From Membranipora membranacea (lineage: Eukaryota > Bryozoa > Gymnolaemata > Cheilostomatida > Membraniporidae), in NCBI GenBank assembly GCA_914767715.1, contig OU612065.1, positions 434,001 to 498,000 of the forward strand: DNA of 64,000 nt, given 5' to 3'. The notes beneath the pieces were generated by a model. That model did not search any database and was not told the DNA's origin. It worked only from the letters and a program-made list of their open reading frames with translations. Of this stretch, positions 16,301 through 49,321 are shown piece after piece. The translations under genes and the position numbers were made by a program. Positions within the stretch are counted from its first letter, which is position 1, and every line of letters starts with the position of its first letter.

Positions 16301-19300
16301 TCAGAGTATATAACCCCAGGGGAATAACTGATCTCACATACAGAGTGTCTCAAACATCAGTAAATTATTCATTGTGTGTAGTATATCAACACAGAGTTAA
16401 TATATCAACATTGAGTTAGGATTTCATATTAACCCACTAGATGTAAATCATGTCAAGATGCAGTATGCAGCATTATTACATATACTGTCCGTACTAGGCT
16501 GAGAACATAGTATATGCATATATTGGTAAGTTGTCTACGCCGGAAAATTGCAGTCTGCAGTTAAGAGATTATAGATGAAAAAGGAAATCAAAACTTTTCA
16601 GCTTTGAGTTGGCACCTTTGGGTGGTGCTTATACCTTGTGAAGTGCTCCATATAACCCTCATCTGTTATAACTGAGGTCACTTGAGATTGAATAGCATGC
16701 TTGACTCAATGTACTAACAGTTCACAAGGGAGCATCAGGGGAAAAAATCAGCCTGATTTGTCTCAAAACATCCTCGGAATGTTCAAAAAACATTCCTTAG
16801 GAATCTTCAGATGCTTCATCACTTCCGGTGACAGAATGCGAGGATGTGACTGATAGGGAGGCTACTGCTCAGCCTGACACAGTAACTCAGCCTGACACAG
16901 TAACTCAGCCTGACACAGTAACTCAGCCTGACACAGTAACTCAGCCTGACACAGTAACTCAGCCTGACACAGTAACTCAGCCTGACACAGTAACTCAGCC
17001 TGACACAGTAACTCAGCCTGACACAGTAACTCAGCCTGGCACAGTAACTCAGCCTGGCACAGTAACTCAGCCTGGCACAGTAACTCAGCCTGACACAGTA
17101 ACTCAGCCTGACACAGTAACTCAGCCTGACACAGTAACTCAGCCTGACACAGTAACTCAGCCTGACACAGTAACTCAGCCTGACACAGTAACTCAGCCTG
17201 ACACAGTAACTCAGCCTGACACAGTAACTCAGCCTGACACAGTAACTCAGCCTGACACAGTAACTCAGCCTGACACAGTAACTCAGCCTGACACAGTAAC
17301 TCAGCCTGACACAGTAACTCAGCCTGACACAGTAACTCAGCCTGACACAGTAACTCAGCCTGACACAGTAACTCAGTGTTTATCTCTGTGGTATGAAGTG
17401 AGCAGTAATCTCCACTGACAATATGACGCTGAGTCACACAGTCAGTTAGTAGTCGCCTGTCCGCCCAGATAAGATAAGGCGGCAAACTAACAGATCCTTA
17501 AATACACCCAAAGAGTTATGAGCATCAGCTATTTCTGTGTATGGCTGTGTATGGCTGTGTATGGCTGTGTATGGCTGTGTATGGCTGTGTATGGCTGTGT
17601 ATGGCTGTGTATGGCTGTGTATGGCTGTGTATGGCTGTGTATGGCTGTGTATGGCTGTGTATGGCTGTGTATGGCTGTGTATGGCTGTGTATGGCTGTGT
17701 ATGGCTGTGTATGGCTGTGTATGGCTGTGTATGGCTGTGTATGGCTGTGTATGGCTGTGTATGGCTGTGTATGGCTGTGTATGGCTGTGCTCAGAGATCG
17801 CCCCAAACTTACTAGTTAGTAACGATAATCAGAGTGCCGAGGGGAGGTACTTACTTCTCATTTTGGTAGGTTTTGATGGAGCTGTTGAGCTCAGCTAAGT
17901 CTCCTCTCAGCACTTCAAGTTTAGAGTTAACAAAGCCTAGCTCTATAAGAACTTTCTCCTTTACCACCTTATTATTGGAAGCCCTGCAATAAACAAATAG
18001 AGTTAGGTATATTCAATAATGAAGTTCTGTGAAGCCGCCACGCTTAGCTCTATTCGTGAACATTTACTTTCCTTGTGGGCATGTACTTTTATTCTGGTCT
18101 GTATTTTACCAACTCCTGATGGTTTGATTTCATCTCCATGGATTTAGACAGAAGATCACTTGTTAGTATTCAGACGTGAATCGAAGAATCTGACACTGTA
18201 ACACAAGAGAACTTTTCATATAAAGTGTCTTCCTGTAATTGATAGTGATGTAGTCATGAGGACCACACATGGTTGTTATCGTTATATAACTGCTCTTGTA
18301 TGGAAGCCTTCGCTGAAACTAGAAAAAAAAGAGGTATCATATTAAATACCTGAGCAGATTTTCAGCTCCTTTGCGGAGGCGTAATTCTTTAATAATATCA
18401 TCATTTATCCTGCTCCGCTTTTTCTGAAGTTTGCTTCTTGCTGTGCTGTATGAAGGATTACAACCCTGTAAACAGAGTAACAAAACATTAAATCAGTAGG
18501 CGGACTAACATTACTAACATTACTAACATTACTACCATTACTAACATTACCCTCAAACCAAATATATCCTCATCTCAATGTCAGCTTAGTTAAAACTTGA
18601 GAGCATCTTCAGCCTGATCTTGACCCGTCTGAAGAGCTCAAGATGCCACATTCATCTAACCCAACCCAAAGTTGTATATATTCCAGCCAGTGTAATTATA
18701 TGGGTTGCTCATAGGATGCCAGTGAGTCATTGTTGGATAATGATTAATCTACGCCACCTACAACAATTACTACTTGATATTTATTGTATTAAAATATGAT
18801 TCAGAATACAATGCCTATTTATTTGCCAAGTATCATATTACTTTTTCAATACCTGATTGTAATGCACTAATACTTGAGCTCGTATTGTTGAGGCAAAACA
18901 CAACATAAACCTAGCAGTGACTGCAGCAGGCAGCTAGTGTTGTGTAGATCAGTGCTTAAAACATCTGGTCCAAACAGAGCTTATGGATATGTACAGAATG
19001 TAGAAATGATGTTTCCTATTTTATGTGATTTGAGAGGCTTTACTATTATGACCATCTTTCATATTACAACCAAAAAGTCAGGCACATAATTAACCATCCT
19101 GGATGAGGTGCTCAAATGAATTAATATGTTGTGATTATGATAATATTAGGATAAGCTACCCTTGTCAACATAGAGTAACAAGAGACATATTTGTATGTAT
19201 ATTTATAAATATAAATCAAAACAAGCATTCCTCAGTCATGAACCAAGTGCCACCAGGGAGAATGGTGCCACTGTGTCACCAACATGTTCCGCTAAGCCGG

Positions 19301-20896: not shown

Positions 20897-21239
20897 CAGC
20901 GCCATGCTGTTAAAACCACACTCCCTGGTCTAAACCCTGGTCCTAACATTTAGAGGCATCCCTAAACCGATTTCTTAGACAAATCAATAGGATGTGCTAC
21001 CTCATCTGAGGTAAGGAAACTGAGGTAAGAAAGAAATACTATATATAAAAAAGTCCACACTCCAGTTCTGTATGGACATGGTCAATTAGAGTAGCCACTG
21101 TTATGAACTCATCATAGAAGACGAGTTGTCGGTGCAACCCATGGCTTGTGCTAAGATTTATTTTAGTTAATACTCAGTCCTATCTATGTGACGCTCATAC
21201 AACATACAGTCGTGCTACAATCAGATCTGAAATTTAAAA

Positions 21240-21755
21240 AAACATATATGTGACATTATGAGAAGCGCAAACAAGACTCTAGGTTGTATAAAATACACGC
21301 TACATGGAGCTCCTGAGAAGGCAAAACTACTTGTGTACACGAGCTTATGCCGCCCTAAGCTTGAATATGCAGATGTACTCTGGGACCGGTCTGACAATGC
21401 CTCTATAGAGGACCTTGAACTAGTGCAAAACAAAGCAGTGAGATTCATAAAAAATATCCAAGGCAGACGTGGCGTCACAGAGGCACGTACTAGTCTTGGA
21501 ATCCAGACTCTACAAGAGAGACGTAAAGCCCATAGAATATCACTCCTGATGAGAATTCTCTCAGACCAGAATAAACACGATACCCTATCCGCTGACTATG
21601 ATGAACTTGTAAACTGTAGATCGCAGGCAACTATGAAAACAAGGGCAGCCGAAAGAGGAGAGCCAACCTCTATCCAGGCATCGTCTGCCGTTTATCATAA
21701 CAGTTTCCTGCCACGAAGCATAAGGGACCTCCGGATAGGGTCTCAACAAAATTAA
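21240..21755 (+). pseudogene. Non-LTR (LINE-type) retrotransposon ORF2 3' fragment
   Basis: An open frame of about 165 residues from 21258 contains SANKTLGCIKYTL, LVYTSLCRPKLEYADVLWD, DLELVQNKAVRFIKN and LGIQTLQERRKAHRISLL. This is the thumb and C-terminal part of Jockey/CR1-like reverse transcriptases (family pattern K-x-x-R-x-L-G, R-P-x-L-E-Y-A-x-x-x-W, E-x-x-Q-x-x-A-x-R-F). No polymerase core or endonuclease is present, so this is a 5'-truncated insertion. Confidence 0.85.
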
Positions 21756-22648
21756 CCTTGAAATGGCTACATGCCAGAATTCTGAAAATACCACTGCTCA
21801 AACAAATGCCTCAACAAATGAGGCACTCAGCTTTTATACCTGACATTGGTAGTTTACGAGTGTTCTAAAGTAATTGAGGTAAGAATTGAGGTAAGAATTG
21901 AGGTAAGAATAGCATAGGTGCCCCAAAACAATTACAGCCGCCAATGTTGTACGCAGTGGCAGGACTCACTTTTGTGGCCCTGCTTCAACCTATCCGGATG
22001 CCTATTTTTCTACTGCCATGGATGTGTTGCCGCAAAAAAAAATGCTCGAAGATCTGGACGGGTATTTAGTGACCACCAGTATTGCCAATGGTCATCCGGA
22101 TGGGTTTGTGACAATCACAGCTTGAGATAGATACAAAGTGAAATGAATGGCCAGTTAGCACTGCCGGACAGGTATTTGTCATAAGCGGATGGCCCTTTTG
22201 CAGTGAGGTGTGATGGATGGCCACATTTACCGTTCACATTTTTAGCACAGCAGACCCTACAGCACCCACAACACTATGTATGAGCCTCGAGTGCTGTAAG
22301 ACATGTCCCATACTGCACCTACAACACCTTTGTCTTGCCACAACTTACAATATCGCCAGCACCTGTTTTTAGTTCCCATTAATCAAAGCATAATTTTCAA
22401 TGTATTCTATATTTGTTATTCTATGTAAGGAGCACGGCCAATGGTCATTCTTACTCTGTAGTTTGTCCAAGTCCAATTACTGAGTGCTCCATTGGTCGAG
22501 GAGAGAGAACTCGACCAATGGGACACTGAACTAGCGGACTTTCGCAAACAGAATATAACGGTGCGTTAGGCTCTTATTGATTGAGTGATTGAACATCTGT
22601 TGTAGCTCATCCATGAAGTCTCTCAGTGTTAAAATATAAATATTCATC
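21756..22648. other. Intergenic and probable LIG4 promoter region
   Basis: No coding exon is supported. A short tandem repeat of gaggtaagaattgaggtaag lies near 21869-21909. An inverted pair of CCAAT boxes lies at 22488-22521 (ccattggtcgag ... ctcgaccaatgg), with a further ccaatgg at 22439. These are about 130-210 bp upstream of the LIG4 ATG and could bind NF-Y; this is motif-based inference. Confidence 0.4.
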
Positions 22649-25600
22649 ATGGTGCAATCAGCATCAAAGATTCCGTTTGTTGCTTTGTGCAATGTACTGG
22701 AAGGTATTCAATCAAAGAAAACTGTGGCAGACAAACGTAAGCTACTTCTGAAGTTTGTCGAAGAATGGAGAGAGAAGACATACAATCCAAAGGATAAGGT
22801 AAGAAGATCGTCATAATCAACATAAAATGAACGGTAATCACACAGGATTGATTAAAGAAAATCATCAAAAATGGCTCATTAATGTAACGCAAAGTCTTCA
22901 TTTACATTTGGTTCAAGTACGACCGATTGCGGCGGTGCGTTTGTATCACACTAAGCTGCTTCATTGCACTGTGTTACTAAATAATCATAATAGATAATGT
23001 AATTAGCTTCAGGCCCTACGCCGATCCCACTACACATCTTAATGCTTCAGAGTTTTCTTCCGTAGGAGGATAGCTTCTATCCAATGCTCCGATGCATTGT
23101 ACCACAGCTGGAAAAAGTAGCTTACGGTATAAAACAGGTAATATTACCTATATATATAATGAAAATATATATATATATATATATATATAAACAGTACTGT
23201 AAATCAAGGAGTAAATCAAGCAAATAAATTCCTATCCAGAGAAAAGTGTTGAGTGGTTGAGGCTGTTATATAACAAGATGACGGTGTGTGTTTCAGCACT
23301 CACTTGGAAGGTTGTATATAGATGTGATGGGATTAGGGAAGAAGAGTGATGCTGCTAACATACTAATGAACTACAAGAATCCGGCGGCAGCAGCAGCAGC
23401 ATCCTCCTCATTCAGCAGTAAGGTACAGTACATCTTACTGCCTACTACTTGTACTGACACGCTTGATGTTGATACATAACTTGGCAACAGACTGAAACGA
23501 TCTTATTTAAAATGTTAGATATACTGACTTAGTCAGGTATATCTAACATTTTAAATCATAGTCATAGTCAGGCTGACTATGATTTCAGTTCCTTTTGCTC
23601 TAGGTAAAGACCAATAGATTCTTACAGTCTTATACAAGTTAGTATAGAAATGTTAAACAGCCAAGCTATTCCTATGATATCCTTGTAACGAGTATCTGAT
23701 GATGAATCATATATGTATATAATATTATCCCCTATTTATTGTACAGACCGATATCCTTCATGCATGTGTGGATGAAGATTTGTATTGACTGGTTGTATAG
23801 TATGATTGTATGACTGATATATGTATGTTGTAGAGTCTTGGGGATTTCGCTGAGTGTGCTTATAGTGTCCTGAAAGACCGATGCTCAGTTAAATCAAAGC
23901 TATCGGTTATGGATGTTATTGATAAGCTCAATGATTTAGCTAACGGTTACAGCGGTAACGATAAGACTCTGGTGAAATCAACACTAGAGTATCTGATCCG
24001 TAACCTCACAGGACTAGAGAATAAGTGGTTCATCAGGATGTTAGTCAAGGATATGAAGCTTGGTGAGTATACTCAGTCGATCATATTATAGTTCTCGACT
24101 CATTACTGTGTATTCTGAGACCACTACTTGGTACCATACATATATAATAACCAGCCGATCACTACAAGCTTACCTCAGTGAATGTGTGTAATGGCACTGA
24201 GCCACTTTAACCCCCTGATTATGTTACTGCATTGGCTGTGCTGTATATATTATTGTGTTTATTATACTTGTAGGATTAGGACAGGACAGTATACTATCTG
24301 CTGTACACCCAGATGCCCCAGCTCTGTTTAATGTAGACACAAGTCTCGAGAGGGTAGATTATACATATTATGTGCCTTTAACTGCCTTGCTTGTTCTGGT
24401 TATTATACTTCGATTACTCAGAGAAATACAATGTATGGTATCATCTATCTAACCATTAATGAAGCCAAAATGTACGTTTAAGTACGTTTGAAATGAAATC
24501 AGGTTTGCCTTCATAGTAAGAGGTTTACTAGCCTGTCTTGATAGCTAGACAAAGCCTGTCAAGACAGGCTAGTTCACACTCAACTACATGTATATACCCA
24601 TATTTTTCGAAGTTGTCCTCCCATTGACATTAATAAGACAACTTGTGATTATAATAATAAGCTTGAATTGATCACCAGAGAGTTTGGGACGCCGTGGTAT
24701 TACTAATGATATATACTTACAGGTATGTAGTAAGCTGAGAGATATAACTAAGAGGCTACATGAGGTAGAAGTGAGCCTATTCGCTCCTCTAAAACCCATG
24801 CTGGGTAAACAAGCAAGACCAAATGAGGTACATATACTCTACATAATCTGTAGTATATTATGTAATGCAATGGAAACTGTGAAAACGCTCAGATTCATTA
24901 TTTATAATCATGTACAGACACAGTAATCAAATGTGAGCCTCGCCTTACCTCTACCTCTTAGTGGACTACAGTGATATTCACTTTACCTGGTTGAGGCGTT
25001 CTTACAATGTCCTAACTTTATTAGACTGTGATATTCACTTTACCAGGTTGAGGCGTTCTCACAATGTCCTAACTTTATTAGACTGTGATATTCACTTTAC
25101 CAGGTTGAGGCGTTCTTACAATGTCCTAACTTTATTAGACTGTGATATTTACTTTCTCAGGTTGAGGCGTTCTCACAATATCCTAACTTTATTAGACTGT
25201 GATATTCACTTTACCTGGTTGAGACGTTCTTACAATGTCCTAACTTTATTAGACTGTGATATTTACTTTACCTGGTTGAGGCGTTCTCACAATGTCCTAA
25301 CTTTATTAGACTGTGATATTTACTTTACCTGGTTGAGGCGTTCTCACAATGTCCTAACTTTATTAGACTGTGATATTTACTTTACCTGGTTGAGGCGTTC
25401 TCACAATGTCCTAACTTTATTAGACTGTGATATTCACTTTACCTGGTTGAGGCGTTCTCACAATGTCCTAACTTTATTAGACTGTGATATTCACTTTACC
25501 AGGTTGAGGCGTTTTCACAATGTCCTAACTTTATTAGACTGTGATATTCACTTTACCTGGTTGAGGCGTCCTCACAATGTCCTAACTTTATTAGACTGTG

Positions 25601-28600
25601 ATATTCACTTTACCTGGTTGAGACGTTCTTACAATGTCCTAACTTTATTAGACTGTGATATTTACTTTACCTGGTTGAGGCGTTCTCACAATGTCCTAAC
25701 TTTATTAGACTGTGGTATTTACTTTACCTGGTTGAGGCGTTCTCACAATGTCCTAACTTTATTAGACTGTGATATTTACTTTACCTGGTTGAGGCGTTCT
25801 CACAATGTCCTAACTTTATTAGACTGTGATATTCACTTTACCTGGTTGAGGCGTTCTCACAATGTCCTAACTTTATTAGACTGTGATATTCACTTTACCT
25901 GGTTGAGGCGTCCTCACAATGTCCTAACTTTATTAGACTGTGATATTCACTTTACCTGGTTGAGACGTTCTTACAATGTCCTAACTTTATTAGACTGTGA
26001 TATTTACTTTACCTGGTTGAGGCGTTCTCACAATGTCCTAACTTTATTAGACTGTGATATTTACTTTACCTGGTTGAGGCGTTCTCACAATGTCCTAACT
26101 TTATTAGACTGTGATATTTACTTTACCTGGTTGAGGCGTTCTCACAATGTCCTAACTTTATTAGACTGTGATATTCACTTTACCTGGTTGAGGCGTTCTC
26201 ACAATGTCCTAACTTTATTAGACTGTGATATTTACTTTCTCAGGTTGAGACGTTCTCACAATGTCCTAACTTTATTAGACTGTGATAATCACTTTACCTG
26301 GTTGAGGCGTTCTCACAATGTCCTAACTTTATTAGACTGTGATATTCACTTTACCTGGTTGAGGCGTTCTCACAATGTCCTAACTTTATTAGACTGTGAT
26401 ATTTACTTTCTCAGGTTGAGAAGTTCTCACAATGTCCTAACTTTATTAGACTGTGATATTTACTTTCTCAGGTTGAGACGTTCTCACAATGTCCTAACTT
26501 TATTAGACTGTGATATTTACTTTCTCAGGTTGAGACGTTCTCACAATGTCCTAACTTTATTAGACTGTGATATTCACTTTACCTGGTTGAGGCGTTCTCA
26601 CAATGTCCTAACTTTATTAGACTGTGATATTTACTTTCTCAGGTTGAGACGTTCTCACAATGTCCTAACTTTATTAGACTGTGATATTCACTTTACCTGG
26701 TTGAGGCGTTCTCACAATGTCCTAACTTTATTAGACTGTGATATTTACTTTCTCAGGTTGAGACGTTCTCACAATGTCCTAACTTTATTAGACTGTGATA
26801 TTTACTTTCTCAGGTTGAGACGTTCTCACAATGTCCTAACTTTATTAGACTGTGATATTCACTTTACCTGGTTGAGGCGTTCTCACAATGTCCTAACTTT
26901 ATTAGACTGTGATATTTACTTTCTCAGGTTGAGACGCTCTTACAATGTCCTAACTTTATTAGACTGTGATATTTACTTTCTCAGGTTGAGGCGCTCTTAC
27001 AATGTCCTAACTTTATTAGACTGTGATATTTACTTTACCTGGTTGAGGCGTTCTCACAATGTCCTAACTTTATTAGACTGTGATATTTACTTTACCTGGT
27101 TGAGGCGTTCTCACAATGTCCTAACTTTATTATACTGTGATATTTACTTTCTCAGGTTGAGACGTTCTCACAATGTCCTAACTTTATTAGACTGTGATAT
27201 TTACTTTACCTGGTTGAGGCGTTCTCACAATGTCCTAACTTTATTAGACTGTGATATTTACTTTACCTGGTTGAGGCGTTCTCACAATGTCCTAACTTTA
27301 TTAGACTGTGATATTTACTTTCTCAGGTTGAGACGTTCTCACAATGTCCTAACTTTATTAGACTGATATTTACTTTACCAGGTTGAGGCGTTCTCACAAT
27401 GTCCTAACTTTATTAGACTGTGATATTTACTTTACCTGGTTGAGACGTTCTCACAATGTCCTAACTTTATTAGACTGTGATATTTACTTTCTCAGGTTGA
27501 GGCGTTCTCACAATGTCCTAACTTTATTAGACTGTGATATTTACTTTCTCAGGTTGAGACGTTCTCACAATGTCCTAACTTTATTAGACTGTGATATTCA
27601 CTTTACCTGGTTCAGACGTTCTCACAATGTCCTAACTTTATTAGACTGTGATATTTACTTTCTCAGGTTGAGGCGTTCTCACAATGTCCTAACTTTATTA
27701 GACTGTGATATTCACTTTACCTGGTTGAGACGTTCTCACAATGTCCTAACTTTATTAGACTGTGATATTTACTTTCTCAGGTTGAGACGTTCTCACAATG
27801 TCCTAACTTTATTAGACTGATATTTACTTTACCAGGTCGAGGCGTTCTCACAATGTCCTAACTTTATTAGACTGTGATATTTACTTTCTCAGGTTGAGAC
27901 GTTCTCACAATGTCCTAACTTTATTAGACTGTGATATTTACTTTACCAGGTTGAGACGTTCTCACAATGTCCTAACTTTATTAGACTGTGATATTTACTT
28001 TCTCAGGTTGAGACGTTCTCACAATGTCCTAACTTTATTTGACTGTGATATTTACTTTACCAGGTCGAGGCGTTCTCACAATGTCCTAACTTTATTAGAC
28101 TGTGATATTCACTTTACCAGGTTGAGGCGTTTTCACAATGTCCTAACTTTATTAGACTGTGATATTTACTTTACCTGGTTGAGGCGTTCTCACAATGTCC
28201 TAACTTTATTAGACTGTGATATTTACTTTCTCAGGTTGAGACGTTCTCACAATGTCCTAACTTTATTAGACTGTTATATTTACTTTACCAGGTTGAGACG
28301 TTCTCACAATGTCCTAACTTTATTAGACTGTGATATTCACTTAACCTAATGAGGCGTTCTCACAATGTCCTAACTTTATTAGACTGTGATATTCACTTTA
28401 CCAGGTTGAGACGTTCTCACAATGTCCTAACTTTATTAGACTGTGATATTTACTTTCTCCGGTTGAGACGTTCTCACAATGTCCTAACTTTATTAGACTG
28501 TGATATTCACTTTACCAGGTTGAGGCGTTCTCACAATGTCCTAACTTTATTAGACTGTGATATTTACTTTCTCAGGTTGAGACGTTCTCACAATGTCCTA

Positions 28601-31600
28601 ACTTTATTAGGCTGTGATATTTACTTTCTCAGGTTGAGGCGTTCTCACAATGTCCTAACTTTACTAGACTGTGATATTTACTTTCTCAGGTTGAGGCGTT
28701 CTCACAATGTCCTAACTTTATTAGACTGTGATATTTACTTTACCAGGTTGAGACGTTCTCACAATGTCCTAACTTTATTAGACTGTGATATTTACTTTAC
28801 CAGGTTGAGGCGTTCTCACAATGTCCTAACTTTATTAGACTGTGATATTTACTTTCTCAGGTTGAGGCGTTCTTACAATGCCTAACTTTATTAGACTGTG
28901 ATATTTACTTTCTCAGGTTGAGGCGTACTTACAATGCCCTAACTTTATTAGACTGTGATATTTACTTTATCAGGTTGAGACGTTCTTACAATGCCCTAAC
29001 TTTATCAGACTGTGATATTTACTTTCTCAGGTTGAGGCGTACTTACAATGCCCTAACTTTATTAGACTGTGATATTTACTTTCTCAGGTTGAGGCGTACT
29101 TACAATGTCCTAACTTTATTAGACTGTGATGTTTACTTTCTCAGGTTGAGGCGTTCTTACAATGCCCCAACTTCATTAGACTGTGATATTTACTTTCTCA
29201 GGTTGAGGCGTACTTACAATGCCCTAACTTTATTAGACTGTGATATTTACTTTATCAGGTTGAGACGTTCTTACAATGCCCTAACTTTATCAGACTGTGA
29301 TATTTACTTTCTCAGGTTGAGGCGTACTTACAATGCCCTAACTTTATTAGACTGTGATATTTACTTTCTCAGGTTGAGGCGTACTTACAATGTCCTAACT
29401 TTATTAGACTGTGATATTTACTTTCTCAGGTTGAGGCGTTCTTACAATGCCCTAACTTTATTAGACTGTGATATTTACTTTCTCAGGTTGAGGCGTACTT
29501 ACAATGCCCTAACTTTATTAGACTGTGATGTTTACTTTCTCAGGTTGAGGCGTTCTTACAATGCCCTAACTTCATTAGACTGTGATATTTACTTTCTCAG
29601 GTTGAGGCGTACTTACAATGCCCTAACTTTATTAGACTGTGATATTTACTTTCTCAGGTTGAGGCGTTCTTACAATGCCCTAACTTTATTAGACTGTGAT
29701 ATTTACTTTCTCAGGTTGAGGCGTACTTACAATGCCCTAACTTTATTAGACTGTGATATTTACTTTCTCAGGTTGAGACGTTCTTACAATGCCCTAGCTT
29801 TATCAGACTGTGATATTTACTTTCTCAGGTTGAGGCGTACTTACAATGCCCTAACTTTATTAGACTGTGATATTTACTTTCTCAGGTTGAGGTGTACTTA
29901 CAATGCCCTAACTTCATTAGACTGTGATATTTACTTTCTCAGGTTGAGGCGTACTTACAATGCCCTAACTTTATAATGGAGAGGAAGTTTGATGGTGAGA
30001 GAATGCAACTACATATGAAGAATGGAGAATATAAATATTACTCTAGAAAGTAAGACTAAGACTAAGACTAAGACTAAGACTAAGATATCGACGATATGTT
30101 AATATTATCGTTTGTTTAATCGCTCCGATAATCTTCCTCAGCCCAGGGAGAATTCTCCCTGCTCAGCCCTTCTCCTTACGCCTTCTCTCATGCCATCATG
30201 TCATTCTATTCATCCATCTCTTTCACCTTCCCTCTTGTTCTGTGTTTTCATTTCGATTTTTATTTACAGTAGATATAATCCCTTCTCAAATTAAACCAAT
30301 TATATGTTCTGATGATAGAGTTTATAGATGTATATGTAATCACCTCAGCCAGTGTTCTTAGTCAGGTAGACTAAGTATCTACTCACTTGTTTAAGGCTGT
30401 CACACTTTATCTGCATAGTCTGATATTTATTTATGTGATTTACAGCGGTAAGGATTACACGAGTACATACGGATCCACACAGTTTGATGGTAACCTCACG
30501 CCTCGTATACACTCACATCTAAAGGATGTGAGGAACTGTATATTAGATGGAGAGATGTGCGGTTATGATACAGAGCTACATGTACTCGGTCAGTATATCA
30601 TCGTCAGCACACACATCGCAGCTACATTACGTATAGTCTTAGTCTGATTGTCTCAATAAGAAGGAGTATCTGTCTCACATAGTATCAGTTTAGAATGTTG
30701 TGCAGACCATGCTGGTTATCATATTAGCTGGTTAAATGAAGCGGTTCATTGTAAGATATATCTACGTATATGACTGTTGAGTTAGTGTAAAATCCAGCTT
30801 GAGGATGGTACTAACTTGTCTACCCTTCTTATATTTCAGGTTCTAAGGCGATGAACTTTGATATTAAATCAGCGAGTTTGACTCGGTATACTCCGTGCTA
30901 TGTTGTATTTGATATGTTATATCTAAACAATGAGGTCCTTACTAACCTACCGCTGAGACAAAGACTAAGTAAACTATCCGAGGTAATCGAGCCGGAGGAT
31001 GGGCTAATATTCGCATCTACGTCCACTAACGCATCTACTAAGTAAGTCATCTACTAAGTATGTCATCTACTAAGTATGTTGTCTACTAAGTATGTCATCT
31101 ACTAAGTATGTCACCTACTAAGTGTGTCACCTACTAAGTATGTCATCTACTAAGTGTGTCACCTACTAAGTATGTCACCTACTAAGTATGTCATCTACTA
31201 AGTAAGTCATCTACTAAGTGTGTCATCTACTAAGTATGTCATCTACTAAGTGTGTCACCTACTAAGTATGTCATCTACTAAGTATATCATCTGCTAAGTA
31301 TGTCCCCTGCTAAGTATGTCATCTACTAAGTATGTCATCTACTAAGTATGTTGTCTACTAAGTATGTCATCTACTAAGTATGTCACCTACTAAGTGTGTC
31401 ACCTACTAAGTATGTCATCTACTAAGTGTGTCACCTACTAAGTATGTCATCTACTAAGTCTGTCATCTACTAAGTAAGTCATCTACTAAGTCTGTCATCT
31501 ACTAAGTATGTCATCTACTAAGTGTGTCACCTACTAAGTATGTCATCTACTAAGTATATCATCTGCTAAGTATGTCCCCTGCTTAGTATGTCATCTACTA

Positions 31601-34600
31601 AGTATGTCATCTACTAAGTATGTTGTCTACTAAGTATGTCATCTACTAAGTATGTCACCTACTAAGTGTGTCACCTACTAAGTATGTCATCTACTAAGTA
31701 AGTCATCTACTAAGTAAGTCATCTACTAAGTATGTCATCTACTAAGTAAGTCATCTACTAAGTAAGTCATCTACTAAGTATGTCATCTACTAAGTAAGTC
31801 ATCTACTAAGTATGGCATCTACTAAGTATATCATCTGCTAAGTATGTCCCCTGCTAAGTATGTCATCTACTAAGTATGTCATCTACTAAGTATGTTGTCT
31901 ACTAAGTATGTCATCTACTAAGTATGTCACCTACTAAGTGTATCACCTACTAAGTATGTCATCTACTAAGTGTGTCACCTACTAAGTATGTCATCTACTA
32001 AGTATGTCATCTACTAAGTAAGTCATCTACTAAGTGTGTCATCTACTAAGTATGTCATCTACTAAGTGTGTCACCTACTAAGTATGTCATCTACTAAGTA
32101 TATCATCTGCTAAGTATGTCCCCTGCTAAGTATGTCATCTACTAAGTATGTCATCTACTAAGTATGTTGTCTACTAAGTATGTCATCTACTAAGTATGTC
32201 ACCTACTAAGTGTGTCACCTACTAAGTATGTCATCTACTAAGTATGTCACCTACTAAGTATGTCATCTTCTTAGTTCTATCATGTTATATTTGTGTGACA
32301 TTTTTACCGGTTGGCAAAAGATCACAAGTTTTGGTCATCATGTCATTGGGGGGCGTATTGTGCGTTGTATTATATTATTCTATATTACTATACATTAATG
32401 TATATTATAACTTTTGTAGTAAGGAATGTTTAGATGCACTAAATCAGGCCATAGATAGATATGAGGAGGGTATTATGGTTAAACATCCTGACTCTGTATA
32501 TAAGCCTAACTCTAGATCAGCTGGCTGGTAAGTATGTCTCACTCTATTATCCGCTTATATAAGCTCACATGTATGAGCTCACCTGTGCACACTTACCTGT
32601 GTGCGCTTACTTGTTTCTGTAAATGATAAACAATGGAAGGCAACTCTGTCACCATTTAGTTAAACTTATAGTATAAACACGGAATCGTATGTGTTAGGGA
32701 TTGCTTACCACTAAACATTTGTCTGTCATGTTGCCTGCCAGGTTCACACTTAAAGGTGAAATCGTTATGTTGTTACCAATGTGTGTGCTGTATACTGAGT
32801 ATATCAGGATAACAGTTCTGTATTCAGACTCAAATATGAATGCAGTGATTGTAGTTATTACTATTTATCCTTTGTGACTGTGGCAGGTATAAGATAAAGC
32901 CTGAGTATGTAGACGGATTGATGGATGAGTTAGATATAGTAATAATAGGAGGATACTTCGGTAAAGGGAGAAGAGCTCACATCCTCTCACACTTTCTCTG
33001 TGCTGTGATGGATAATAGTAAAACTCCTGCTCAGTTCCACTCAATGACTAAGGTCTGAAATAGTATTATATCACTATTCTCTCAGGACTATAGGACTTTC
33101 ATATCTCACAAAGTAATTACTTGTTCCTGCTTAGAGTCCATATATCATATACTTTCTCTTATTAGTATTTATCTCTCTTCTTTTTGTTCACTAGGTTGGC
33201 TCGGGATATTCGTTTAAAGAGCTGTTAGATTTTAATGTGAAGCTCAAATCGCGATGGCAGAAGACTCAGCCTAGTAATGTTGTCGTGTCGAGAGAGAAAC
33301 CTGATATATGGATAGATCCTCTCAAGTCAGCCATACTGCAGGTCTCTGTCACCAACTCCTCAATCGGTATTATCTACATAATGTAATATAGTCTGGTGAA
33401 GAGAAAAACAGTATTTGTGTTAGCGACAACTCAGAACTTTATCTTTGTTTGATACATATATATACATCAAACGAAGATATATATATATATATATATATAA
33501 TATTTTGAGTTACGCTAAACCGATGTGATATAATTGGTTATATGTGGTAATAATAATATAACACCTTGTTTAATACTCTGACAGGTGAAGGCTACAGAGG
33601 TGATTGAGAGCTCCGCCTTTCACACAGGGTTTTCTCTGAGATTTCCCAGAGTAGAGAAAATAAGAGAAGACAAAGATCCAACTGATTGTTTAACGCTGAC
33701 TGATTTTCATCAACTCAGGACCGTAAGACTATCATTGATATAATCACCGATATTATCCTCAGCTTCCTATGATCTGTTTGGGCGACATTTGATTCATATT
33801 TGCTCATCCTGAACCTACATATACTGTACGCTGCCCATCTAATATGACTTCTGTATATTATAAGAGCCAGCACATTTACATACCTTTGTATATTTATAGA
33901 AGCGTTCCGGACAGCTGACCACTGGCCTTCTCTCTGATGAGTTGTTAGATGAACCTAAGGCTAAGAAGAAGAGAAGAACAGTGGCTAATCGGTCTGTAGC
34001 TCCTCCCACTTTAGCCCAACAGTTTAGAGCTGCAGATACATCACAGATTAATAAAGTAAGAAACTGTCCTCTAACTTACTCACCTGCACAAACAGGCCTA
34101 TCACATCAGTATCACTTAATCATCAGCACTAATAAGCCTATATGTCACGATACACACTAAAGCTTCTTATTTTCGACACTATAAAAGTTACAGGCTATAA
34201 AATATTGCTGAATTTGAGAAGAAATATGCCGACACATGTAGCGACACATGTAGCGACACATGTAGCGTTAGTTTATAGCATTTTGAAACTGTGCACACTG
34301 ATAACAAAGCATCTGACAGACTATATTATATTATATTATATTATATGATATTATATTTTGGTCCTCGTAGGCAGCCAACTGTACTTGTAACTTTCACCTA
34401 ATCACATACATAAAGCTTTGTCAGATGTTGATGCCTATAAATCTGTGACTTAGACGTAATGAGATTATCTAGGACTGACACTCTCTGCTTTCAGGTTCAC
34501 ATATTCTCCTACTGATACCCGACCGCCCGCGTATCATTAGAAGGGAGCAACATGAAATAATGGTAAACTGACTCAAACTTGATCTTGTATATCAGTATTT

Positions 34601-37600
34601 TGTTTTATTGTAGGAGTCTGACACATTCGAAGGCAAAGAGTTCTGTATAATACACGGCTGTACAGCACAAACTAAACAGGACTTAGAGCAGCATGTTGTG
34701 AGAATGGGCGGATCTATAGTCCAAAATGCAGGTCAGCATACATGATAATACAAAGCATTCTGCGCCTGCTCAGCTCTGGGCATGAGCTGATCTCTGCAAA
34801 ATTGAGTCTCGGAATTCCGAAGCCATCTGATTGGCTACCTGCTATGGTGGTACACTCCCCAATGCGAGCTATCTTCTGCTGTCACCATTAGCTATATTCG
34901 ATTGGCAGTTCATGCAGGGGGTGTATCATTTTCCCTGACCAAAATTGCAATCAGAACCCAATCTAAACTCATTGTTCTTGCACATGCGCAAATTAAAGTC
35001 ATGCAGGATACATACTTAGCCTTATGACATCTCTTTTGTGGCAATGATAGCCTAGTTTATCAGTGATCTACATGCCCAGTCAGATCACGAGAGTCAGTAT
35101 GATTACGAAGTATGCATCACTACATCTTATGGTGCTGCTCTTCAATCTTATAAAGTAATGGTCCAGTATACTGATATGACTGAATCTTTACTTTTTGTTG
35201 CAGGATTTGACACATTTTGCGTTGTCGCGGATAAGATAAACTTGCGAGTGAGAAACTATATGAAGGCTGCTAAGTATAACATAGCCAGACTTGATTGGCT
35301 GGTTCGCTGTATAGAGGAGAAGACATTACTACAGTGGTGAGCATTCCTCTGTGCTTCTGCTGCTGTATTTTATTATATAACCACACATTGTCTGCTGTAA
35401 AGACACCTTCAATTAATGACCTTCATAAGTCAAGAGCACTGCACGGTGAACTCCCATCTTACAATAATCCACCTGAATAGGTATTTATGTGGTACCATCT
35501 ATCTACAGGGAGCCATGTGATATGATATCAACCTCTCCAGCTGTCCAGCAGAAGTTTGATGAGAAGTTTGATAGATTTGGAGACGATCATTCTACTAATA
35601 CAAGTACAGAACAACTACAGAAAATATTCAGCCTCATGCCACCGAGAAAACTGGTAAGAAAACCAGTAACATAATGATGTGTTTGTATCAGAAAATACTT
35701 GGTGATTAGAATGTATTTGTTCATATATTTGCAGTATTTGATAAGTTTCTTCAACATACAAATGCCACTTAATATTTGTGTCATTTTATGAATATAACAG
35801 AGGACTAGTAATAAAGTGGTTGCTTGAGCAGATGGCCCGACCAAATAATGTTACTAAATTGTTAATAATATATCAGTATCAATATTGTTATTAAGTCTAA
35901 ATAAAAGTAAATGAGTCTTTAAATGTACATTAATCATCAACACACAAACATAAATGGATGATGTTTTTAGCTTGTGAGTCTGTTTTTGGGTATAGACAGT
36001 CTTATCCCCACCCTCTCCTAACTGTCGCTTCTCTGTTATAGAACGAGCCTTTGGTTACTTATGATGAGATGTGTATTCTAGATGAACAGTTATCTACTCA
36101 TGAGGACTATATCAGATCTCTATTCAGAGCCTGCAGGTCAGTCAACACCTATATATCTGTTTTATATACTCATCATTTCTTTGTTTATAGTGAAAAGTGG
36201 GTAAATAAAATCAAGATATATATATATACATAGTATTGTAACAGGTCTTACAATCAGATGTCAAAGTTGAGTTTATATTATGAGCTCACTAGATAACTTT
36301 TCTGGGGCTAAAACCAATCCCTCAAACTGGCATACAAGGACCTGTTTCCCCAAGATGTGGTTTTGATGTGGCACAAGCTGATTGGATGTTAGAACTAACA
36401 AAATTTTAAGATAGCCAAATACTCCCCCTGTCTTTCATTGCTAGAATATAAAACATCTTCTCTCTCCAAGTTTACATTACTCTCATAAGAACCTGGGTAC
36501 TCACTTTCCTACTTAGCTGTAAGGAATGCGATGCCATTTGACTTTTCAAAGTCTCAGGTATGTTTTAGCTTTCAAAAGGGTACCTTTTTTGCTATTATTG
36601 CTCATTTCGCTATTTGGATTTTGAGCTCCACTTTACGTAGCAGTTAGAAATTAATCCAGCCTCTTAGGGTCTTACAGAGTTGAGAACTAGAGCTCAGCCC
36701 CAGCCCTCTCCCTGCTGCTGCAGTGTGGGACAGAGCCCACACCACTTTGAGCTTAATACCATCACATATTATTATAGATTATACGATGGTGACGAGGGCA
36801 CACAATCCCGCACATCGTTTAATCTGATAGAGGCTCGATTTTATGGTGCTGTCACTAAAGAGGAGCTGACTGATAATGTCACACATGCTGTCTGTAATGA
36901 TCTGTAAGTGCCATCTTATACTTAAGTACACAGCTCATGAGGCTTCTCTTTTAGTTTCATAGTAAGGTCGAAGGTCATGTTGTTTCAAACATTTAATTTA
37001 TCCAAGTGGCAGGAAATAAAAAATAAAGTAACAAATATAAATTCTACATGAAAAATGAAGAGTAGTTTATTTTGTAATGTTGTCAAAGGCAAATCGAAAC
37101 ATTGTAGTTGCTCTATGAGATAAACGAAAGCTTATGTTATAATCGTAGTAACATAATATCATATCACTTGTCGTAAAGTTTGATCGATTCAGACGCCTGA
37201 TAATATTATAATAATTAGCCTCTGTTTTCTTTGAATCGATTATCATTCAACCCACTAAGTTCAACTGAACTACAGTGACTATCCAAGCCACACAGTAGAT
37301 GGAAGTCTCAGTAATTCTCAGCATCATAGCAGTAATATCTGGCCTTTCATTATCTGAATCACTATTGTTTCTGACTTGGTGCGGCTGTAAGGTATAGTAA
37401 CTTGTCAGCGATTAGTGTGAGACAGTGTACAACTCTCAGATCGAGAGCTTTACTGAATCTCCTCTATCTCTGTACAGTTTATCTTATTAGATACATTTAT
37501 ACATTTAGTACTATTTGTACTATTTATTTGTATGCTTGTTATTATTCCATCCTTAGTGAGAATTTAGCCAAACTTCAAGAGATAAACAGAAGCAGAGAGA

Positions 37601-37698
37601 GAAAGTTTCACATAGTCACTCCTTCGTGGATAGAAGAAAGTATAGAAGCTGAGAAAATTCTCAAAGAAAGAGAATTCCCTCTCAGGTTTCAGGTATGA
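22649..37698 (+). CDS. LIG4: DNA ligase IV (NHEJ), complete, 20 coding exons
   Basis: Exons: 22649-22798, 23066-23137, 23297-23422, 23834-24062, 24274-24353, 24723-24827, 29943-30049, 30446-30588, 30840-31041, 32420-32527, 32887-33052, 33195-33341, 33585-33722, 33900-34055, 34614-34731, 35204-35336, 35509-35653, 36042-36136, 36778-36903, 37557-37698. All phases agree, giving 895 residues (human 911). The DNA-binding domain opens [20 protein letters not shown]. Catalytic motif I KFDGERMQ puts the adenylated Lys near residue 269. CILDGEM, REEGIMVK-like [10 protein letters not shown] and WYKIKPEY are further ligase motifs. A basic stretch AKKKRR is a likely NLS. Two BRCT domains ([23 protein letters not shown] ... 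[14 protein letters not shown]) flank the XRCC4-binding linker. The enzyme seals double-strand breaks with XRCC4. Introns 6 and 9 carry giant satellites made from the gene's own splice junctions. Confidence 0.97.
23503..23587. repeat. Two back-to-back hairpins in LIG4 intron 3
   Basis: Arms atttaaaatgttagatatac and gtatatctaacattttaaat form the first hairpin. catagtca and tgactatg form a second hairpin immediately after it. No flanking direct repeat was recognised. Confidence 0.6.
24527..24573. repeat. Hairpin with 15-bp perfect arms, LIG4 intron 5
   Basis: Arms actagcctgtcttga and tcaagacaggctagt enclose a loop of about 17 bp. A related hairpin (ttagcctgtcttgac ... gtcaagacggactta) is at 59911-59948, so this is a dispersed palindromic sequence. 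Confidence 0.7.
24961..29976. repeat. 57-bp satellite built from the LIG4 intron 6 / exon 7 acceptor
   Basis: About 88 tandem copies of a 57-bp unit are present. Each unit holds gttgaggcgttctcacaatg, then tcctaactttattagac, then tgtgatatttactttctcag. The last segment is the polypyrimidine tract and AG of the real exon 7 acceptor. The first segments are homologous to the first ~36 bp of exon 7 (29943 on), including a branch-site-like cctaac. Many 5' units read ttacctgg (AG lost); 3' units mostly read tctcagg or taccagg (AG kept). In the LIG4 frame every unit ends in a TGA. The long ORFs (19-residue repeats) exist only because 57 is divisible by 3. Confidence 0.97.
30044..30087. repeat. Hexamer repeat starting on the LIG4 exon 7 donor
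   Basis: agtaag is followed by about six copies of actaag beginning at the 5' splice site (exon ends 30049). The array is short, but it is seeded on the splice junction like the larger satellites. Confidence 0.85.
30137..30168. mobile_element. 18-bp palindromic element with 7-bp target-site duplication, copy in LIG4 intron 7
   Basis: CAGGGAGAATTCTCCCTG at 30144-30161 is flanked by CTCAGCC on both sides (30137-30143 and 30162-30168). It is identical to the element at 20294-20311, while the flanks are different. Confidence 0.8.
31022..32263. repeat. 16-bp satellite built from the LIG4 exon 9 / intron 9 donor
   Basis: About 77 copies of a 16-mer (tcatctactaagtatg with variants) start at the end of exon 9, whose own junction reads ctactaa then gtaagt. 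Each unit therefore repeats the last ~7 exon bases and the first ~9 intron bases, offering a donor-like site (aa then gtatgt or gtaagt). A marker variant (tatatcatctgctaag) recurs at 31283, 31555, 31827 and 32099, exactly 272 bp apart, so a 17-unit higher-order repeat exists in four copies. In frame, reading past the real donor meets TAA at once. Confidence 0.97.
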
Positions 37699-39700: not shown

Positions 39701-42700
39701 ATGTCACTCAAGTTAACGGTAATTCTTCTGTTCTGCATTTGTCAAAGTGAGTTTCATTTAGCAAATGACTCCCTTTTATAAATGAATATAGAGGTAGAAT
39801 TAGTTATATAGAATCATATGCATGAGTGATGGCTGACGGTGCTTTGGATCCTTTGATATAAACTTACAATGCCACACAGGTCAGTCATTGATAATCATTT
39901 TTGTAAGGCCAGACCTTGTCTGGTGAACTTATAAGTATAAATATATTTTGGTCGGTCATTTTTTTCGCTCATCATTTATGAATATTTGACGGCTTCTACT
40001 TGCTCTTTTTATCTGTCATAAACAGAAACTCTTCTTACCTCTATGACTATAAAACTAAACCATAGACCTAATAATATATAAATAATAAGTCTATGAGCTA
40101 AACATTTTTCTGTTGCTAGAAAAAAGTTATGAATGGATGAAAAACATATATATATCTTAGCACAGGATCGGCGATCAACATAAATTTTGGTTCTGGCAAA
40201 AAATTTTGTAATATACTAAATATTCATCTACATATACACCAGGGTATTTGTATACCGGTTCTGTATATTGGGGTCTGGATTTGATGAAGTCACATGTACA
40301 TATTTACCTGCATAGACATTACATTCAACATTCCCAGGTACAACGACCCAGCTTACTGGTGGATGTCTGCCGTTCATGACTTCTTGGATGAATAAGTGTA
40401 TTATCAGCTATAAGTCTGCTACCTGGAGTGGAGCACAGAAGACCTGCGCTGATCACTACAGTGGACGATTGATAGAGTTTAACCATCCTCAGTACTACTC
40501 CAGGGATATAATAGGACTACTAGATGAAACCAGACCTGTCTGGGTGGGAGCTAGGAGAGAGATTAGCTGGTATTGGAGTTTATCCTCCTCTTTACAAAGT
40601 GGTATGTTGAATTTGATTGATAAGTGTTATGTGGCTTTTCTGGGACTTGCTCGGATTGCATATAAAACTGAATCAAAGCTGAATTAATCTGAATTGAAGC
40701 TGAATAAATCATGATGTGAGCATTAACAGAACTGTAGAAACAATCACTCACTGATCAATGAAGTTCATTGCACTGAGTAACAGTTTGATGTTATGTCAGA
40801 TACGCGTAATACTTTGTTTACTTACAGGTCTGACCAGAGGCACTCATCCACCTATAGGGAGAAAGTTTTGGGCCAAACATCGGAATCCTATCGGAGGAGA
40901 CGACTTGGGGATAATACTGGATGGTACACAGAGCTTCAGATGGCTTAAAGTGGCTCCAAACATAACCATAAACACAAATCTGAGGATAAGACCTCTGTGC
41001 CAGTGTGAGAACTGTAGTAAGTTGTTCCTCTTTAATTGTAACAGCTAAACAAGTTTTCAAGTAATCATATCGGTTTATACTCCATCAGAAAGCTCACGGT
41101 CTCAGGGTCCAAGGAAGTCATCATTTTACTTATAATTTGACTGTACTAGGGAAAAATTGATAAATGATGGTAAAATCAAAAGTTTTCCTGTTACTGCTTT
41201 CAATAATCTCCTAGTATCAATTTAACTTTGAATATTTATACAATAAATAGCGAATTTGTCCAGAAAAAAACACATGTTTGGTACCACCAAGGAGTTGGAG
41301 ACTCTTAGAGTCTCTAACTCCTTGGTACCACAAATGTGTGTTTTGGGAGCAATTTTAATATTGCCGAGTTGCTATCACAAGATGTGCTTGATAATGTCCA
41401 GGCATTGGGATAACTTCTATGGCTATCATGTTGGAGCTGAAATAACGAAAAAGACTACTGTATATTCTACCTCAAAAGACATGTTCTGAGCAGTTATTTT
41501 TCTCTCTACATGATATCCAGGGTGGTTTTTCAAATTTATAATCTTAGCCGGTTAAACATTGTCATAGTGGGGTGACCAATTTTTTAAAACCACTGAGTTG
41601 GATTAGCAATATTTGCAGTTATGTTTGTGAATGCTACATCCAAAACATGATCACTCCCATCATACAGAATAATCATCTGAACAAGGAGTTACACTCTTCT
41701 TTGATCAGAGAAGACAACTTCTATAGAATGTATGGAATATGACATTCAGGCTCTGTCTGTTTATAGTTACAGCCCACAGCCTCCTTACCATCTCCTGGCA
41801 CACAAAGTATGAGCAGACAGAGTATTTCACACCATCAGTAGTAGGAGTAGATTGGACTACTGCCTGGGATAGATGTAAAGGTGTGACTGGTGCTCGATTA
41901 GTAGGCTTAATATCTGATAAACTACAGACACATTTACAACAGAATCTACCTGCTGGATATCACTACTGGACTGCTGGATTCTCTAATCAAATATACCGAT
42001 GGGAGGATGGTGGGTATTCACTGTACTTGAGAAATTTAGCAATAAAATCAGCACTAATTTATTCATAAATGGCATAAAAGTAATCCTATGAAAAAGCGAG
42101 GCACTTCTGGCAAAGCTATAAATTGAGGTAAAGGAAAAACACCATGGAATCAACAATCAAATATGTAACAACAATGTTTATGTAATTACTACCACCTCAG
42201 TACCATATTAGTAGTTGGTGAGACTGAGGTAGCCTCTTAGTCATACTCCCACATACCCTGCAGTCTTAATCGGTGGCGTGTAAATCTTTTCACAGGTGGA
42301 TCAGTTCAGGTGGTCGACACTAGCTTGGTAAGCTCCGTCAGTGATCCTGTATGTCTGTCATTAACAATCTACAACAAATCTCCTAAATACCAAGCTAGGA
42401 GTTGTGATGATCACATATCATTCATCTGTGAGTTTGGTAAGCAGAAGCAGACAACTACCACAATCAGTCCTCCTAGAAACTTTTCTCAACATCTGACTAA
42501 CAGAGGACCTCTTCCAGCGCATGTATCAGCACCAGCAAGCGAAGAACCCCAGCCTAACAATAATACCTCATTAGCTAAAGAAGAAGAAGCTGAAAATAAG
42601 ATATCTGCTAATCAGTACCTGACGAGCCCTGTCGGTGAGTACCTGTTTAGTTTCCATTGATTAAATTTCAACATCAGAGACCAAAACATTTGTCTTCAAC

Positions 42701-47136: not shown

Positions 47137-49321
47137 ATGGATATTTGTACTGAGCTTTTTCTACTTATCATTATAATTATCTGTACCGGTACGTCTCTGC
47201 TTCTCTCTATGCTTTAGATCTGATTGTGGTACATTTCAGTAACAAAATAACATTTTATATATTAAGATTATCAGGAACCAAAAAAAATAAGTGAGCTTGG
47301 ATGTAGGTTTCCAAACCTGTTTTATCATTCTAAAACCTGTGGAGTGGGAGTACCTCAAGGCACAACACTATCTACATACTGAGCGAAACTGGTCATAGTC
47401 ATATCACCAGTGTTTACTACATTGTTAATCACTTTCTATTTTCTACTCTCTGTTATCGATGCATTTTTCAAGACAGTCAAAAGATTTGATGCAAAATTTT
47501 AAACTGTATTTTCTAAGAATAAAATATTTTACTGGTTCTTGTTCTCTTTATTTGCTCTAGGAGCAATCACTGATGAGCTGAGCACAGCTACACCGGCACC
47601 AGGTGATGACCCGACTCCTGATCATGATATCACCCCTGTACAGTATATAAATAGTCCTCTAGGTAAGCTGATATCGCCCCTGTACAGTATATAAATAGTC
47701 CTCTAGGTAAGCTGATATCATCCCTTTACTGTATATAACTAGTCCTCTAGGTAAGCTGATATCAGTATCACCCCTGTACAGTATGTAAATAGTCCTCTAG
47801 GTAAGCTGATATCACCCCTGTACTGTATATAACTAGTCCTCTAGGTAAGCTGATATCGCCCCTGTACAGTATATAAATAGTCCTCTAGGTAAGCTGATAT
47901 CATCCCTTTACTGTATATAACTAGTCCTCTAGGTAAGCTGATATCAGTATCACCCCTGTACAGTATGTAAATAGTCCTCTAGGTAAGCTGATATCACCCC
48001 TGTACTGTATATAAATAGTCCTCTAGGTAAGCTGATTTCACCCCTGTACTGTATATAACTAGTCCTCTAGGTAAGCTGATATCGCCCCTGTACAGTATAT
48101 AAATAGTCCTCTAGGTAAGCTGATATCATCCCTTTACTGTATATAACTAGTCCTCTAGGTAAGCTGATATCAGTATCACCCCTGTACAGTATGTAAATAG
48201 TCCTCTAGGTAAGCTGATATCACCCCTGTACTGTATATAACTAGTCCTCTCGGTAAGCTGATATCACCCCTGTACAGTATATAAATAGTCCTCTAGATTA
48301 ACTGAGGCCAGCACATCAGGCACACCTTGAGAAATCAAAGCGATTTAAAAAAATAGTGAAAGTGGATTGTTTGGATGTTTCTTGTTACAGGTCACAAGAG
48401 TAGGTGTTAAAACCAGAAAACTCCACTTCCTTGTTTTCCTGCGAAACTTATCCTGTGTATTGATATTATTACTGAAATGTCTTACAATCCTTTCACTAAG
48501 TTGTTTCCTTACTGGTTACAGCGCACGCTAATCTTTCTCATATGCCAAGAAGAACACCATGCCTGTATAAAGCATGCCCAGACTATGATAGGAACTAGAC
48601 CTGTATATTAGCTTAGCTGTAGCAAAATAAAGGAAGTTGGTACAGGACCAAATATAGTCATGTTATATCAGCGCAATCAATCATATATTATGATATAAAG
48701 GTTATTTTTTCAGGTATCACATTTTTAGTTATATCTGTGATATTGCTGATATTACTAATAGTGGGAGTCATAACGATAATCACCTTCAGAAGTAAAAGGT
48801 TAGTGGTGTATTTATTGTATTCTTCCTAAATAATACTATGTGCAGCACTGTGCCAGTGAGACTTCTTAAATCTGCACTCGCCTCCGAACTTTACTTGTAT
48901 GATCTGATAGTTGGGTAGTTGATATTCATTTGTTGATATGAGGAAAAGAGTTAATTTTTGACGATTTAATATCTGGGGGTATTTACTATCTGTATTTAGA
49001 CTGAGGGTATTTAATATCTGTATTTAGACTGAGGGTATTTAATATCTGTATTTAGACTGAGGAATTTACTATCTGTATATAGACTGAGGGTTTTTAAATC
49101 TGTATTTAGACTGAGGGTATTTAATATCTGTATTTAGACTGAGGAATTTACTATCTGTATATAGACTGAGGGTTTTTAAATCTGTATTTAGACTGAGGGT
49201 ATTTCAGCCACACAAAGTCTCACCGTGTAATGACGATGTGGAGTCAGAGGTCAGGGGTAGGTCAAAGTTTAGGAGACACTCATTAGCACCTCGACCAATA
49301 CATAAAGACCTCAACTGGTGA
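47137..49321 (+). CDS. Lectin-less type I membrane protein of the receptor family (receptor B)
   Basis: Exons: 47137-47188, 47561-47662, 48714-48798, 49192-49321, giving 122 residues with consistent phases. Signal peptide MDICTELFLLIIIIICT. The ectodomain is only about 33 residues (ITDELSTATPAPGDDPTPDH and on to NSPL). Membrane helix LVISVILLILLIVGVITIIT comes from an exon of 85 bp, the same length as receptor A's. The tail begins RLRVFQPHKVSP and ends RRHSLAPRPIHKDLNW. The tail end matches receptor D (SLAPVPVHQEFQW), so this is a receptor that lost, or never had, its lectin exons. RRHS is a PKA/CaMK-type site by consensus. Both middle junctions sit next to satellites made from those junctions. 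It may be a working small adaptor or a shrinking pseudogene; no internal stop is seen. Confidence 0.75.
47620..48296. repeat. 44/50-bp satellite built from receptor B stalk exon end plus donor
   Basis: Fifteen tandem units repeat the last ~37 bp of exon 2 (ending agtcctctag) plus the first intron bases gtaagct. Fourteen keep a strong donor (ctctag or ctctcg, then gtaagc); the last ends agatta. Four unit types, one with a 6-bp insert (cagtat), recur in order, giving a higher-order period near 182 bp. Reading past the first donor meets TAA inside the next unit, which would release a soluble peptide. Confidence 0.95.
48975..49205. repeat. 28-bp satellite built from receptor B tail-exon acceptor
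   Basis: Eight units of about 28 bp (actgagggtatttaatatct then gtatttag) end in the true acceptor at 49191. Each unit carries an AG acceptor (tatttag or tatatag) plus the first ~11 bases of the tail exon. Splicing to an upstream copy gives a TAG stop after about nine residues. Confidence 0.93.

Follow-up and report, generated by a model that had tools for sequence, protein, structure and literature searches.

Minisatellite-like tandem duplications that run across exon-intron boundaries, at the 3′ or the 5′ splice site, have been described in amphioxus as "mirages" in Adh3 and in the globin genes BflGb6 and BflGb9, where they undergo local homogenisation and have been proposed as a path to new introns (PMC3087553). 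In the cited passages of that account, the splice signals AG/GT are kept in many, not all, copies and regular splicing is reported; the units measure 10-72 bp in Adh3, two haplotypes of BflGb6 carry 6 and 3 units of 150-160 bp, and BflGb9 carries one 157-bp duplicate. Internal tandem repeats at exon-intron boundaries, mostly minisatellites, are also described in human segmental-duplication genes, where they alter splicing or form introns; the gene-modifying repeats average 30-bp units in 4 copies, and 66% of the intron cases also have repeat-retaining transcripts, as far as the cited passages go (PMC2812944). Here we analysed a 64,000-nucleotide window of the bryozoan Membranipora membranacea (contig OU612065.1 of assembly GCA_914767715.1, positions 434,001 to 498,000), in which a tandem array of 57-bp units lies at the junction of intron 6 and exon 7 of the DNA ligase 4 gene, LIG4. 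This array is very probably a mirage-type minisatellite, in which the copy nearest to the exon still functions as the acceptor while the remaining 87 have become intron.

The LIG4 array has in common with the amphioxus mirages, as the cited passages present them, a unit that spans the boundary and a splice signal that is retained in part (AG in 54/87 upstream copies). It is larger, with 88 units of 57 bp over 5 kb, and it stands in a bryozoan gene that combines acceptor and donor arrays; the amphioxus mirages were backed by reverse transcription-PCR and length polymorphism, whereas the LIG4 array is described here from assembly sequence. The human repeats lie likewise at the exon-intron boundary, but the LIG4 unit is 57 bp long and present 88 times. 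The array is an extreme case of a described kind of repeat, with a copy number well above those in the cited passages. An earlier note on this DNA had proposed an undescribed class of minisatellite, a claim that falls, amphioxus mirages (PMC3087553) and human boundary repeats (PMC2812944) being already known. What is new, by comparison with the cited passages, is the ~5 kb of acceptor copies, a mirror array of donors in the same gene, a probable two-copy stage in a lectin-like gene, and the phylum, which those passages do not mention. In the genome note of Watersipora (PMC12902671), the passages that deal with repeats and with RNA contain nothing on splice-site repeats.

The 57-bp array at the LIG4 intron 6/exon 7 junction

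Manual placement gave LIG4 20 exons, separated by 19 introns that all have GT-AG borders. The 643-aa protein encoded by exons 1-14 matched, over residues 5-623, PDB chains named DNA ligase 4 (E 1e-164). A LIG4 protein search scored 7989 candidates and gave 586 matches at E 0.001 or better, the best 120 of which were listed; among the matches listed, the top two were LIG4 of Watersipora subatra (77% identity, 100% of the query) and of Bugula neritina (78%, 91%). Watersipora is a cheilostome bryozoan, as is Bugula. The gene and the array have the following layout.

22649-37692, + strand: LIG4 (DNA ligase 4), 20 exons, the end of the last one provisional
24723-24827, + strand: LIG4 exon 6, 3′ border AATGAG/GTACAT
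24971-29974, + strand: 57-bp tandem array of LIG4 intron 6/exon 7 (Tandem Repeats Finder: period 57, 87.9 copies)
25201-26226, + strand: units 5-22 of the array, 17/18 without AG, with a 6-unit higher-order repeat
28900-29925, + strand: units 70-87, nearest to the true exon, 18/18 keeping AG, with units 70-73 identical to units 75-78 (5-unit higher-order repeat)
29926-29982, + strand: unit 88, the true intron 6/exon 7 junction, TTTCTCAG/GTTGAGGCG, cut at 29943
29943-30049, + strand: LIG4 exon 7, 107 nt, its start encoding the ligase active-site motif

Cutting the array (94% matches, score 8160 in Tandem Repeats Finder) at a fixed anchor gave 88 units with spacings of 57 bp (83 times), 55 bp (twice) and 56 bp (twice), a copy number far in excess of chance expectation. 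The units are in register and the last of them is the authentic junction at 29943, which bears out both the earlier note's claim of about 88 copies of LIG4's own intron 6/exon 7 junction and the alignment of all units to the exon 7 boundary that it proposed as a check. The same note had the unit made of ~20 intron and ~36 exon bases; its origin from the junction stands but the sizes do not, the unit comprising ~25 bp of the end of intron 6 and the first 32 bp of exon 7. Read from the true acceptor, the exon-derived part is GTTGAGGCGTACTTACAATGCCCTAACTTTAT (32 bp), and the ~25 bp that follow it, intron-like in the repeats, are TAGACTGTGATATTTACTTTCTCAG. The left flank of unit 1, which reads ..CTTAGTGGACTACAGTGATATTCAC, is a near-match to the intron part save for two 3-base differences, so that this ~25-bp part probably goes back to what was once the end of intron 6.

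The upstream copies fall into 40 distinct kinds of unit among 87, and units 11-16 differ from units 17-22 at a single position in 342 bases. The mean number of mismatches to the true junction copy (first 50 columns) was 7.3 for units 1-22, 6.3 for units 23-44, 6.4 for units 45-69 and 2.2 for units 70-87. The unit variants and the higher-order repeats form a pattern of repeated local duplication, typical of tandem turnover. Local blocks of like units accompany the higher-order repeats, but the copies nearest to exon 7 are the most like exon 7, and a sparing of the boundary copies from concerted evolution is not seen at that edge.

The endings of the 88 copies were 40 CTCAG, 31 ACCTG, 13 ACCAG, 2 ATCAG, 1 ACCTA and 1 CTCCG. 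The acceptor AG is kept in 54 of the 87 upstream copies (39 CTCAG, 13 ACCAG, 2 ATCAG) and absent from the remaining 33, so that many, not all, copies keep the splice signal, as in mirages; the earlier note, which had counted every unit with tctcag or taccag as a decoy acceptor, was too strong on this point. By position, AG is present in 4/22 of units 1-22, 12/22 of units 23-44, 17/22 of units 45-66 and 21/21 of units 67-87. Loss of AG from the 5′ copies was considered as proof of selection and rejected, because the units were copied jointly in 6-unit blocks and hence are not independent.

Acceptors were scored with a matrix of 32 acceptors from LIG4 and from a RAP1GDS1-like gene in the window, a score of 5.6 or more being taken as acceptor-like. 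The 57-bp array holds 55 acceptor-like sites, the true one included, and most CTCAG copies score 11.0, equal to the true acceptor, which scores 8.8 and ranks 13/32 when the matrix is built without it. With the leave-one-out 25th percentile as threshold, 54 upstream acceptors pass and 0 donors do. A branch-site-like cctaac had been assigned to each unit; it is found in 85/87 upstream copies and missing from 2, and it lies within the exon 7-derived part, with its second A 31 nt ahead of the AG of the next copy. In the LIG4 frame, 81/87 upstream cuts, including 49 of the 54 that keep AG, run into a stop after 13 codons, in accordance with the short peptide ending just before the active-site motif that the note had foreseen; the other six differ, with stops after 11, 19, 26, 32, 32 and 371 codons, the last from the AG-keeping unit 69.

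Donor-like sites were defined by a score of 4.0 or more, the lowest value among 31 real donors scored in the same matrix, a threshold that is partly circular because the real donors were scored in their own matrix. No GT in the 57-bp array reaches 4.0, the best scoring 3.9. Leave-one-out scoring lowers the weakest real donor to 0.8, and 139 array sites then pass, with 0 at the 25th percentile; the donor of exon 6 is itself weak, with a leave-one-out score of 3.2 against a median of 7.1 for the 31 donors. Good acceptors are thus plentiful in the array and good donors scarce, though a weak donor may exist in it.

Exon 6 and exon 7 join as ..GKQxxPNE/VE.. in our model and in both bryozoan proteins, which are database predictions, with no insert and no residue added, and it is on account of this join that we regard the exon-nearest copy as the one in use. 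The opening residues encoded by exon 7 include the lysine of the ligase active-site motif. It is the last copy that fits the protein, as the earlier note had supposed; as in mirages, the array ends with its authentic junction, and the protein join is intact. The lengths of the introns support the same reading: intron 6 has 5115 nt and intron 9 has 1378 nt, the remaining 17/17 introns have 142-653 nt, and without array copies introns 6 and 9 would each measure ~162 nt (87 copies subtracted from intron 6), a length that fits the other introns of the gene.

Donor-side arrays of LIG4 and other arrays in the window

The earlier note did not mention an array at the exon 9 donor, a hexamer array next to the exon 7 donor, or related arrays in other genes of the window. 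Those of LIG4 are the following.

31032-32268, + strand: 16-bp array of 77 copies (CATCTACTAAGTATGT), the first copy being the exon 9 donor
30051-30085, + strand: TAAGAC in 5.8 copies, starting at intron base +2 of the exon 7 donor (GAAA/GTAAGAC)

LIG4 exon 9 ends at 31041 (ACTAA/GTAAGT), inside the first copy of the 16-bp array, which holds 70 donor-like sites (the true one included) and 0 acceptor-like ones; only 8 of the extra donors pass the leave-one-out 25th percentile and 0 pass the median. The forms that follow CTAA (n=76) are 47 GTATGT, 12 GTGTGT, 9 GTAAGT and 8 others. The exon 9 donor array is thus a mirror image, in the same gene, of the acceptor array at exon 7. It also resembles the minisatellite of the interferon-induced gene 6-16 (IFI6), in which short units at the end of an exon carry many donors, but that repeat is shorter and donor-only. 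The TAAGAC unit itself contains no GT. That each of the two long arrays holds one kind of site and not the other was judged not to be striking: with a background of 56 donor-like sites in 8727 intron bases, most 57-bp units would be without a donor anyway.

Three further arrays lie at or close to mapped or predicted junctions elsewhere in the window.

3620-3766, + strand: pyrimidine-rich 12-bp array of 12 copies, from intron base +7 after the ninth mapped exon of the RAP1GDS1-like gene
57060-57182, + strand: tandem pair of a 63-bp unit, spanning the predicted acceptor of a lectin-like exon
47625-48296, + strand: 44-bp array of 15 copies, with 13 CTAG/GTAAGC and 1 CTCG/GTAAGC, best score 9.2

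The RAP1GDS1-like gene has 13 mapped exons (494-5394), the ninth ending at 3613 (CACG/GTAAGT), and its protein matches PDB Rap1 GTPase-GDP dissociation stimulator 1 (E 5e-25). The two lectin-like 63-bp copies differ by 6 mismatches over 63 columns, with TGG at both breakpoints, and a paralogue 15 kb upstream has a single copy (41733-41795) with its acceptor at ~41767. From the neighbouring exon 56573-56761 the frame continues into either copy, at sites 57100 and 57163, which are predicted acceptors with scores of 7.4 and 7.0 on the basis of frame, score and comparison with the paralogue. The pair is probably a two-copy early stage, or first step, of the same process. The name lectin-like is a weak label, 1 of 10 pieces scanned with Pfam, the related stretch 53449-53751, having given a Lectin_C match below the cut-off, and a protein search for a homologue returned none at E 0.001 among 434 candidates. 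The 44-bp array is a candidate donor array of a plausible predicted exon starting at 47561.

Other repeats of the window were seen as well. An 18-bp array of 28 copies (99% matches) at 16868-17376 is open as TQPDTV repeats, and a 10-bp array of 25 copies (100% matches) lies at 17535-17789; because they are very uniform, both are perhaps young. Short repeats of the TGAGGTAAG motif, a strong donor-like word scoring 9.5 at the second place, occur at 21000-21040 and 21872-21910, and they flank an open reading frame (ORF) at 21231-21755 that resembles a reverse-transcriptase remnant, by appearance only.

Within the mapped spans of the two genes, 4/7 arrays lie at most 10 bp from a junction, against 9.8% expected per array (binomial P 0.0025), and 2/7 contain a junction (P 0.0005). 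In a wider span that takes in the arrays 128-160 and 217-259, before the first mapped exon (494), the corresponding figures are 4/9 against 9.6% (P 0.007) and 2/9 (P 0.0007). Leaving out the focal array gave 3/6 (P 0.006), a value that favours the claim inasmuch as the 5 kb of that array were still counted as available ground. Five distance thresholds were tried, and P ranged from 0.0005 to 0.015 over both versions of the span, for a small n that includes the focal array. The excess of arrays at splice junctions is a lead, not a result.

These figures bear on two readings. In a genome rich in repeats, the arrays could lie near splice sites by coincidence, without any general tendency, which we regard as possible, somewhat short of an even chance: Tandem Repeats Finder returned 37 rows across the 64-kb window, 3/7 arrays (5/9 in the wider span) lie more than 10 bp from any junction, and the window was chosen through the focal array with n small. 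The proportions near a junction (4/7 and 4/9, with the P values above) and the two arrays that contain one speak against coincidence. We also entertain, tentatively, the view that splice junctions are preferred seeds of tandem-array growth genome-wide, with mirages recurrent in a second, distant phylum. Such growth would start from a duplication via short homology across the junction, which would be tolerated since the protein stays intact through the exon-nearest copy, and tens of copies would then be added to the intron; the decoys transcribed first would lose their AG, as the contrast between the low proportion in units 1-22 and the full set in units 67-87 would suggest.

Splice-site choice and competing explanations

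Several points weigh against the mirage interpretation of the LIG4 array. All 21 of the copies nearest to the exon keep AG and 15/21 score 11.0 like the true acceptor, so that sequence by itself leaves the choice of the last copy unexplained. The statement that the array has no donors depends on the threshold, the weakest real donor (0.8) scoring below the AG/GTTGAG cut of the array (1.1). The relatives' proteins are database predictions, and the copy number comes from one assembly.

The last of these points raises the question of an assembly artefact, that is, a collapsed or expanded repeat with far fewer real copies. Long arrays are in general prone to errors of length; however, the 40 distinct units among 87, the units of 55 and 56 bp, the private variants and the ordered higher-order repeats are unlike a simple duplication of reads, and a similar design is found in other arrays of the window, which makes an artefact highly unlikely in our view.

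In recursive (ratchet) splicing, copies with CAG/GT would be spliced again from the same point, so that all paths would lead to the same exon 6/exon 7 join and the array would be self-correcting. In favour of it, GTTGAG comes straight after the AG of intact copies (GTCGAG in two of them), the scores of CTCAG copies equal that of the true acceptor, and branch-like CTAAC is present in 85/87 upstream units. As a donor, however, GTTGAG in the CTCAG context scores 1.1, with only 1/31 real donors lower by leave-one-out and a median of 7.1, and the two GTCGAG copies reach just 3.9; we give this scheme very little credence. RNA structure concealing the decoys was likewise considered and rejected on one 188-nt stretch: the three final units, taken together with the beginning of exon 7, fold little better than shuffled sequences (z -1.07, 26/200 as good or better).

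That the array is coding (open in one frame, 809 aa) or regulatory, its decoys tuning LIG4 output via decay-prone transcripts, appears hardly tenable, for although stop-to-stop ORFs of 809, 152, 177, 183 and 376 aa lie on it and the 13-codon stop follows 81/87 upstream cuts, the long ORFs arise mechanically because 57 is a multiple of 3 and one frame is free of stops, the LIG4 frame stops in nearly every unit, two bryozoan proteins have no insert, and nothing in the analysis points to regulation.

For the mirage-type minisatellite that we favour, we infer the following course of growth, splice choice and decay. A short tandem duplication across the LIG4 intron 6/exon 7 junction would have been amplified into the intron by unequal exchange or replication slippage, with coding and splicing constraint holding the exon-nearest copy as the acceptor. 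In nearly all units a branch-like CTAAC stands 31 nt ahead of the AG that follows. Because the array is without a good donor, an upstream decoy would be usable only through a lengthening of exon 7, by ~57 nt per copy. Exon definition from the donor of exon 7 may then lead the spliceosome to use mostly the last copy, which gives the 107-nt exon, and mis-splicing would produce truncated transcripts with early stops that would be removed by nonsense-mediated decay.

The locus provides a natural test of splice-site choice among dozens of near-identical copies that vary in distance and in whether they keep AG, and the same gene also offers the mirror case, that of the donors. A probable early stage, of two copies, and a late one, of 88 copies, of one process would stand together in one window. 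The finding would extend a phenomenon reported from amphioxus to another phylum, and it bears on the lengthening of introns and on the origin of new ones.

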